From contig JAJQCQ010000059.1 of NCBI GenBank assembly GCA_021202635.1, forward strand, positions 1 to 64,000: a stretch of 64,000 nt of DNA, in the 5' to 3' direction. Every line of letters starts with the position of its first letter. Positions within the stretch are counted from its first letter, which is position 1. The notes under the pieces were generated by a model. It had not been told where the DNA came from. It saw nothing but the letters and a program-made list of their open reading frames with translations, and searched no databases. Origin of the DNA: Lachnospiraceae bacterium (GTDB lineage: Bacteria; Bacillota; Clostridia; Lachnospirales; Lachnospiraceae). Shown here in pieces: positions 30,289-33,277 of the stretch. The position numbers and the translations under genes are program-made.

Positions 30289-30337
30289 GTAACTATTCAG
30301 AGCAGCAGGCCGCAGACCGCCTGCTCTGAACTGTTAC
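30289..30337. repeat. Family-1 modular repeat, copy C (minimal)
   Basis: GTAACTATTCAGAGCAGCAGGCCGCAGACCGCCTGCTCTGAACTGTTAC. Confidence 0.8.
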
Positions 30338-30446
30338 AAAATCACATATAAAGAAACAGGCGGGATTCGCATGTCTGAGCTTGTGCGAATCCCGTGAACA
30401 TTTTTTGCACACCCGGGAGACTGGCTATTTGCTGGTTTTTCCCGGG

Positions 30447-30610
30447 TTATTCACATTATCCACAATTTTATGCACACCTATGCCCGGGAGGAAAAAGGAA
30501 AATTTTGTGGATAACAAGATTTACATAATTATTCGACAAAATCCGCCAGTTTAGGGTTTTGGAATTTGGAAAAAGGAATTATTGTCAACCAGTTATCCAC
30601 ATTATCCACA
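30447..30610. promoter_or_regulatory. Cluster of six DnaA-box 9-mers
   Basis: TTATTCACA 30447, TTATCCACA 30456, TTATGCACA 30468, TGTGGATAA 30506 (reverse), TTATCCACA 30593, TTATCCACA 30602; all fit TTATNCACA. Confidence 0.8.
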
Positions 30611-30641
30611 CAATTCACAGGAAAAGTGGCGGGGAAAACTC

Positions 30642-30657: not shown

Positions 30658-30853
30658 AGTAGCGGTTCTCATTTTGGACGAAGTATGTTATACTCTTCCA
30701 AAGATGAAAAAACGGGCTGCAGATCACACCCTGACCAGATTGATCTTATTTATACATCTGCAGGTGTGACCTGTAACGGAATCCGGAGGCAGCAGTCATT
30801 TCTTTTTATTCCCGGATTTCGAAAAAGGATCGTGACAGGGAAGGCGCACAGAG

Positions 30854-32104
30854 ATGAAGATATATACAGATAATCCAGAGGGATCCACAGTGATCCAGAA
30901 TTCATTTATTGATCAGTACATGCCCCATGCCAATGGGGAGTTTGTGAAAGTCTATCTGTATCTGCTTCGCTGCGCGAACAGCGGGCGTGAGCTTTCCCTC
31001 TCCTCGATCGCGGATGTGTTTGAGCACACGGAAAAGGATGTGCAGCGTGCACTGACCTACTGGGAGCGGCAGAATCTGCTTCAGTCAAAGCTTTCGCCGG
31101 ATGGAACACTGGAATCGGTGACATTTCTGGACCCGGGGTATTATTCTACACCGGTGATTCTGGCGGATGCCCTGCAGGAGTCGTCCGATCTCTACAGCGA
31201 CGGGATGGCTTCCTACCGGGAGCCGCTTCCTGCCCGTCCGCATGGTCATGCGGCGGAACGGCAGCAGGAATCCGCCGGGGCGGCATCGCGCAGAGACGCC
31301 TCCTCCTGCCGGGAGAATGCCCCGGGAGGACGTCCGGCGACGATCCTGCGGATGAGAGAACCGGGAGATGCGATGGCAGACCAGCAGGGAAGTGCGCCGG
31401 AAGCTTCGGCGGCGGAGCATTCGAATGGGGGGGACTCCCCTCTGCTGTCGCAGATGGATCCGGCGGTGCAGGGTGCGATTCGCGAGCTTTATTTTGTAGC
31501 GGAGCAGTATCTGGGGCGTCCGCTTTCTTCCACAGAGCAGAGCGATTTTGTTTATTATTATCATACGCTGGGGTTTTCAACGGACCTGATCGAATATCTG
31601 CTTGAGTATTGTATTATGCGGGGGTCTTTCAGCCGTTATTATATGAATAAGGTCGCGCAGGGCTGGGCAGAGGCCGGTATCACGACTGTGCTGGAAGCGA
31701 AGAAGGAATCCAGCCTTTACAATAAAAAATATTTTTCCGTGCTAAAAGAATTTGGGATCAAGGGGCGGAATCCGGCCCGGTCGGAGCAGGATCTGATCGA
31801 CCGCTGGCTGAATGAGTACGGCTTTGACATGGAGATGATTCTGGAGGCCTGCCGCCGCACGATCCGACAGATACACGAACCGAATTTTCAGTATGCGGAC
31901 AAGATTTTATCCCGGTGGCATACGTCCGGGGTTCATACGATGAAGGACGCCGAGGCCGCGGATTTAAAATGGGAGCAGGAGCAGAAGGTAAAGAAACACG
32001 CGCAGAGCCAGAAGGGCTCCGGCAATGCGGGACAGTTCAACAATTTTACGCAGAGAGAGTATAACTATGACAGTCTGGAGAAGAAGCTGTTTGGCCAGTC
32101 ATGA
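30854..32104 (+). CDS. DnaD-domain primosome protein
   Basis: 416 aa; FVKVYLYLLRCANSGRELSLSSIADVFEHTEKDVQRALTYWE N-terminal DnaD-type winged helix; C-terminal IIDRWLNEYGFDMEMILEACRRTI..NFQYADKILSRW DnaD signature. Confidence 0.87.
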   Translation: MKIYTDNPEGSTVIQNSFIDQYMPHANGEFVKVYLYLLRCANSGRELSLSSIADVFEHTEKDVQRALTYWERQNLLQSKLSPDGTLESVTFLDPGYYSTPVILADALQESSDLYSDGMASYREPLPARPHGHAAERQQESAGAASRRDASSCRENAPGGRPATILRMREPGDAMADQQGSAPEASAAEHSNGGDSPLLSQMDPAVQGAIRELYFVAEQYLGRPLSSTEQSDFVYYYHTLGFSTDLIEYLLEYCIMRGSFSRYYMNKVAQGWAEAGITTVLEAKKESSLYNKKYFSVLKEFGIKGRNPARSEQDLIDRWLNEYGFDMEMILEACRRTIRQIHEPNFQYADKILSRWHTSGVHTMKDAEAADLKWEQEQKVKKHAQSQKGSGNAGQFNNFTQREYNYDSLEKKLFGQS

Positions 32105-32185
32105 ACAGAGCCGGGCGGATAACGCTTCATGGGGCTGTCAGATGGCATCGGAGCAGGAATCAGGGATGATCATGGGTGGAGTGAT

Positions 32186-33277
32186 ATGGGACTGACAAAT
32201 ACGCAGTATGATGAGATTATGCGGGAGTATCAGCGCCGCCAGAATCAAACGCGGCAGGAGCTTTATGAGCGGGAGATGGAAGCGTATCGCCGGATACCGG
32301 AGCTGTCTGAGCTGGATGCGCAGATTGCGGCGATGAGTACGGCATGTGCACGGGATCTGCTGGCCGGGACGGCGGAGGAAGCGCCGGCAGCTGACCGTGT
32401 CCGGTCCGGGGATGATCGTCCTGGGACGGCCCGGGCGGAACGGACAGAAGAGCCGGCATTTCCCGCTTCCATCCGCTCGCTTCGCGGGCAGATTGAAGAG
32501 ATCAGTGCGAAAAAAGCGCAGCTTTTGCGGAATGCAGGGTTTCCGGAGGGGTATCTGCAGCCGCATTATCATTGCCCGGACTGCCAGGATACCGGTTACA
32601 TCGGGCGGGAGAAGTGCCATTGCTTCCGGCAGGCGACCATCGACCTGCTCTATACACGGTCCAATCTGCGCGACGACATCCGGGAGGATAATTTTGCTGC
32701 ATTTTCTCTGGAGTATTACCCGGAGACAATGAAGGATCCGGCTACCGGTCTCACTGCTGCCGCACTGGCTGCGCGCGCTCTTCAGGAATGCCAGCGCTTT
32801 GTGAGGGAGTTCGACGGGGAAGAGGCCGCGAACCTGTTTCTTACCGGAGATACAGGACTGGGCAAGACATTCCTCTCCCACTGTGTCGCCAATGCGCTGC
32901 TGGAAAGCACCCACTCCGTGATTTATTTTTCCGCATTCCGGCTGTTCGAATTACTGGCGGATTCCTCCTTCGGGCGCACCGATGAGCATGAGACGAGTGA
33001 GCTGGAACGGCATATTTTTGCGTGTGATCTTCTGATTATCGATGATCTGGGGACGGAACTGGTAAATTCTTTTGTTGCGTCCCGGCTGTTTCTGATCCTG
33101 AATGAACGGATGCTTCGCCGGAAAAGTACCATGATATCGACGAATCTGTCGCTGGCAGCGATCGCTGAGCGTTATTCAGAACGTGTCCTCTCCCGGATTT
33201 CCAGCGACTACCGGATGCTGCGCCTGATCGGGGATGATATCCGAATCCGCAGGAAGCTTGCGGCGCGGCATAATTAA
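32186..33277 (+). CDS. DnaC/DnaI-like helicase loader ATPase
   Basis: CPDCQDTGYIGREKCHCFRQ zinc site, FLTGDTGLGKTFLSHCVANAL Walker A, LLIIDDLGTEL Walker B. Confidence 0.88.
   Translation: MGLTNTQYDEIMREYQRRQNQTRQELYEREMEAYRRIPELSELDAQIAAMSTACARDLLAGTAEEAPAADRVRSGDDRPGTARAERTEEPAFPASIRSLRGQIEEISAKKAQLLRNAGFPEGYLQPHYHCPDCQDTGYIGREKCHCFRQATIDLLYTRSNLRDDIREDNFAAFSLEYYPETMKDPATGLTAAALAARALQECQRFVREFDGEEAANLFLTGDTGLGKTFLSHCVANALLESTHSVIYFSAFRLFELLADSSFGRTDEHETSELERHIFACDLLIIDDLGTELVNSFVASRLFLILNERMLRRKSTMISTNLSLAAIAERYSERVLSRISSDYRMLRLIGDDIRIRRKLAARHN

Follow-up and report, generated by a model that had tools for sequence, protein, structure and literature searches.

The window, i.e., the whole 64,000-nucleotide stretch of Lachnospiraceae DNA analyzed here, raises the question of why a dense group of DnaA boxes should stand before the dnaD and dnaI genes. 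An earlier sequence-only reading of this DNA had offered three answers, namely autoregulation of helicase loading at the level of DnaA, a DnaA-titration locus, and a secondary initiation site.

The box array and its surroundings

All six boxes were found at the positions given by that reading (Table 1), as exact matches to TTATNCACA within the 164 bp spanning 30447–30610. The motif occurs at 164 sites in the 3.98 Mb genome, so that 0.0068 sites are expected per 164 bp, and the Poisson probability of encountering at least six in such a span at the genome-wide rate is ~1e-16, which agrees with the earlier judgment that chance is a very unlikely source of this density. Six exact boxes in 164 bp constitute a DnaA-box cluster under the definition quoted in PMC7561715, i.e., at least three boxes with a mean spacing under 100 bp. 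Two further details of the earlier reading hold in part. The stretch at 30515–30545 is indeed richer in A+T than the window (71% versus 48%), but it is not extreme in this respect. Similarly, the three CCCGGG sites (at 30412, 30441 and 30483, with 17 occurrences across the whole window) are present, but they represent hairpin arms and fall outside the DnaA-binding pattern.

The genes following the array had been taken to encode primosome loaders, and their domain content confirms this role in replication: the dnaD product has two stretches matching the DnaD/DnaB domain PF07261, a layout resembling that of Bacillus subtilis DnaB (DDBH1-DDBH2-DDBH2; PMC5295017), and is followed by an AAA+ loader of the DnaI/DnaC type. 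The 17 close dnaD relatives in the named collection all belong to genomes of Lachnospiraceae or Clostridiales. The murC gene is found downstream in the window, in an inverted orientation.

Table 1. Sequence features of the dnaD–dnaI upstream region and the genes that follow it (identity, mean pairwise identity among relatives).
Feature	Position	Strand	Remarks
Weak outlying DnaA box TTTTGCACA	30403–30411	+	44 bp before box 1; kept in close subclade only
CCCGGG hairpin	30411–30447	+	Just before array; −23.7 kcal/mol, z −5.5
DnaA box 1 TTATTCACA	30447–30455	+	Identity 0.93
DnaA box 2 TTATCCACA	30456–30464	+	Abuts box 1 directly
DnaA box 3 TTATGCACA	30468–30476	+	
DnaA box 4 TTATCCACA	30506–30514	−	Reverse box
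Non-box motif GATTTACATAA	30518–30528	+	Order-wide form GTTTACATAA; identity 0.97
Spo0A-box match TTCGACA	30532–30538	+	Reverse of TGTCGAA; consensus from PMC5295017
Motif TTATTGTCAAC	30580–30590	+	Before distal pair; identity 0.92
DnaA box 5 TTATCCACA	30593–30601	+	Identity 0.99; first of promoter-phased distal pair
DnaA box 6 TTATCCACA	30602–30610	+	
Degenerate third repeat CAATTCACA	30611–30619		Perfect box in close relative L013
dnaD promoter	30666–30694	+	TTCTCA, 17-bp spacer, TG-extended TATACT; poor −35; conserved
dnaD/dnaB-like initiation protein	30854–32104	+	416 aa; PF07261 in two stretches
dnaI/dnaC-type AAA+ helicase loader	32129–33277	+	382 aa; NF005304, 345 bits

Besides the boxes, the motifs GATTTACATAA and TTATTGTCAAC are conserved as strongly as the boxes themselves, and in many other genera the position of the latter is taken by an inverted GTTTACATAA-like site. 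This conserved partner motif could mark the binding of another regulator. The Spo0A-box match between the two box groups is frequent in relatives without being universal; in the oriC of B. subtilis, boxes for Spo0A and for DnaA overlap (PMC5295017). In one genus (L127, 1483–1508), the region before dnaA contains the palindrome TTATGTAAAC-N6-GTTTACATAA, which shares its motif with the dnaD array. The idea that the GTTTACATAA palindrome defines a wider regulon was discarded upon a search of 41 genomes, which returned a single weak site, in a distant relative.

The region additionally contains two dispersed repeats. One, of ~67 bp (30720–30786), lies in the dnaD 5′ leader, with the inverted elements CAGRTCACACC/GGTGTGACCTG, and is present in the genome in roughly 30 copies or more, of which seven were aligned; a comparison of the leader, including this repeat, with Rfam gave no match to a known RNA family. 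The other (GAGCAGCAGGC...GCCTGCTCTGAACTGTTAC, 30300–30341) has at least five further copies in the same genome.

Conservation and spread of the array

Conservation of the boxes upstream of dnaD in relatives, which the sequence-only reading had named as a check, is borne out. Using a sequence-only search model, the array was recovered in 38 of 40 congeners (E<1e-17) and, family-wide, in 45 of 120 genera (E<1e-5). Among the best 30 family matches, 28 immediately precede a dnaD homologue and, in nearly all cases, are flanked by murC on the opposite side; one of the other two ends at a contig edge and one is the dnaA region. The order murC–array–dnaD was found in seven families of the order, including that of the window. 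Class-wide sampling outside the order yielded 27 model matches, none of them at dnaD or dnaA (tblastn E<0.01); thus, at this sensitivity, the dnaD-linked array is found only within the order. At a box-array match in another family of the class (L226), the stretch encodes a protein that reads like TsaD/Gcp; B. subtilis, too, has a DnaA-box cluster near gcp.

At the level of individual positions, the boxes are 87–99% identical as compared to 32–46% for the spacers (from 27 distinct sequences, the majority belonging to the genus). In the dnaD loci of the named collection the box offsets 0, 9, 21, 59 (reverse), 146 and 155 are constant, and the distance from the array to the start codon varies widely. 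The exceptions among them are some loci without one box, one with an insertion and one incomplete locus; the array is absent from the most distant named dnaD locus (L029, 37% identity). Judged from sequence, the element is both old and conserved.

Helical phasing with the dnaD promoter and a proposed role of DnaA

The box array ends 55 bp before the −35 element of the dnaD promoter, and in the window box 5 is separated from the extended −10 by 91 bp. Across 35 genera, with the distal pair picked by an objective rule (best match to a tandem pair), the corresponding distances are 62, 71–72, 80–84, 91–92, 100–103 and 112–114 bp, with one at 107. These are strongly phased at 10.5 bp (Rayleigh R=0.77, p=1e-9), the 50–125 bp range and the mismatch limit of 3 having been set after the data were partly seen. 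The control distances are not phased (−10 to ATG, p=0.54; pair to ATG, p=0.92; Rayleigh test). The phasing was repeated with an unchanged mean phase in 21 fresh loci, fetched after the idea had been recorded (R=0.60, p=6e-4). Shared descent was allowed for by comparing 25 tree-independent pairs of loci, whose distance differences cluster at whole helical turns; upon removal of differences of up to 2 bp and of those equal to one box unit (9 bp), the remaining 13 pairs still give P=6e-4 at 10.5 bp. Slippage by nine-bp boxes was rejected as the source of the quantized distances: a period of 9 fails in these 13 pairs (P=0.69). Inside the genus alone, using unique distances, the phase test is not significant, and some loci possess no recognizable extended −10 or have the distal pair much farther off. 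The turn-quantized distances provide the constrained box position that serves as a criterion for DnaA-regulated promoters, and they are most simply read as a requirement for DnaA, bound at the distal pair, to face RNA polymerase from a fixed side.

We propose that the array might be a cis-regulatory platform for DnaA, which would occupy two groups of sites, boxes 1–4 and the distal tandem pair 5–6, possibly bridged into a single complex. From the distal pair, centered at about −99 relative to the inferred start site, DnaA would act on RNA polymerase at the dnaD–dnaI promoter with its extended −10 and weak −35, and the supply of helicase-loading proteins would thereby be tied to the level or activity of DnaA. 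Binding by DnaA, its transcriptional effect and the direction of that effect are what we infer here from the DNA itself, and control of dnaD–dnaI transcription by DnaA, in either direction, appears probable to us. Deep conservation upstream of the same operon and phasing with its promoter support the part of the earlier proposal in which DnaA controls the helicase-loader genes; its term autoregulation is a misnomer, since DnaA would regulate genes other than its own. As to direction, we lean slightly toward activation over repression, because the −35 is poor and the sites are upstream, turn-spaced and clear of the promoter. Repression, through looping or the spreading of a filament promoter-ward, is somewhat less likely: the anatomy and phase relation would be identical and looping could bring the two box groups together, yet the boxes stop 55 bp short of the −35, leaving no direct occlusion, and a poor −35 is better suited to activation. 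Should control by DnaA hold, this would be a large and mostly unstudied order of gut bacteria in which the initiator sets how much of its downstream helicase-loading machinery is made.

Among the readings without such control, the locus might titrate DnaA and so set the timing of initiation, in the manner of the B. subtilis box clusters or Escherichia coli datA, its place before dnaD being incidental. Strong boxes that are dense and conserved would suit such a locus, and B. subtilis deprived of six DnaA-box clusters outside oriC initiates early (PMC5295017). However, pure titration predicts neither the persistent association of the array with dnaD across seven families nor the helical phasing between distal pair and dnaD promoter. 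Hence, titration is unlikely as the purpose of the array, even if it is to be expected as a side effect of DnaA binding. A secondary or true replication origin apart from dnaA, as the sequence-only reading also envisaged, is very improbable. The number and tandem layout of the boxes are similar to those of the array beside dnaA in a relative (L058) and the gap between the groups is AT-rich; against this, the array lacks two marks by which an oriC is recognized, adjacency to dnaA/dnaN and a GC-skew switch. In two relatives whose assemblies comprise one or few contigs, it lies 257 kb before (G102) and 286 kb after (G046) dnaA, and the skew keeps its sign around it in both; in G102, skew and gene direction instead switch between 3.46 Mb and the dnaA gene at contig position 1. 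In the window itself the skew is positive throughout and never changes sign, and inspection of 30411–30620 revealed no CTACTA/TAGTAG DnaA-trio run. No dnaA was found in the window's own assembly (3.98 Mb, 106 contigs, 97% complete). Loss of the gene in the lineage was rejected, as 31 of 40 congeners carry it, and we accordingly ascribe its absence to an assembly gap, the oriC region being probably unassembled. In the congeners, box clusters are kept at dnaA.

The remaining account derives the boxes from the neighboring murC gene. We looked at the murC–dnaD gaps for terminators (loci L035–L063 and L104–L107), folding the hairpins of murC-adjacent loci one by one: in ~27 of 32 such loci, a DnaA box and a reverse box form the stem of the murC intrinsic terminator, followed by a T run, with reverse box 4 pairing with box 2. 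The boxes could on this evidence be by-products of the terminator, but boxes 5–6 lie outside any terminator and are nonetheless the most conserved part, and boxes 1–4 are retained in the window despite the relocation of murC, making this explanation scarcely credible. The occurrence of DnaA boxes inside an intrinsic terminator does raise the question of whether DnaA has any part in termination. The CCCGGG hairpin, which precedes box 1 in the window and in close relatives, differs from the murC box terminator; its arms co-vary in relatives (CCCGGGA/TCCCGGG, CCCGGAGAAA/TTTCTCCGGG, CCCGGAGGAAA/TTTCCTCCGGG), and it is probably a terminator or insulator of the close subclade.

Returning to control by DnaA, a more elaborate and in our estimate improbable version is an order-specific switch in which DnaA and a second factor on the inverted GTTTACATAA sites, joined by Spo0A in some species, would form one nucleoprotein complex whose activation of dnaD–dnaI is phased with the promoter, the DnaA boxes themselves also terminating murC transcription. 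If this were true, cell-wall and replication transcription would meet at a single DnaA-controlled site.

Comparison with known DnaA-box systems

The bipartite oriC of Clostridioides difficile, situated at dnaA/dnaN, has a DnaA-dependent unwinding region, a DnaA-trio and, like the array described here, clusters of TTWTNCACA boxes (PMC7561715). In contrast, the array has no nearby dnaA or skew switch, and no trio was seen by inspection. DnaA-box clusters outside oriC and the action of DnaA as a transcription factor are both known (PMC5295017, PMC8203912, PMC4447404). The clusters of B. subtilis resemble the array in comprising several boxes within a single intergenic region outside oriC, and they may lower free DnaA (PMC5295017). 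The array differs in being tied order-wide to a helicase-loader operon and phased with its promoter, and no B. subtilis cluster is so described in the cited reviews. In the literature searched, which lay largely outside subscription journals, we found no description of an array upstream of dnaD in Lachnospiraceae or of its phasing, which is weak evidence of novelty.

The DnaA-regulated promoters, such as those of sda and dnaA–dnaN in B. subtilis and of the dnaB helicase and dnaQ in Caulobacter (PMC8203912, PMC5295017), offer a parallel to the control proposed here, in that DnaA serves there as a transcription factor through which initiation is coupled to other genes, some of them replication genes. 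The putative target in the present case is instead a dnaD/dnaB-like gene together with dnaI. The dnaB–dnaI operon of B. subtilis has been listed among the replication-responsive, DnaA-linked operons. If it is indeed DnaA-linked, the regulatory logic would not be new, and the novelty of the Lachnospiraceae array would lie only in its architecture and spread.
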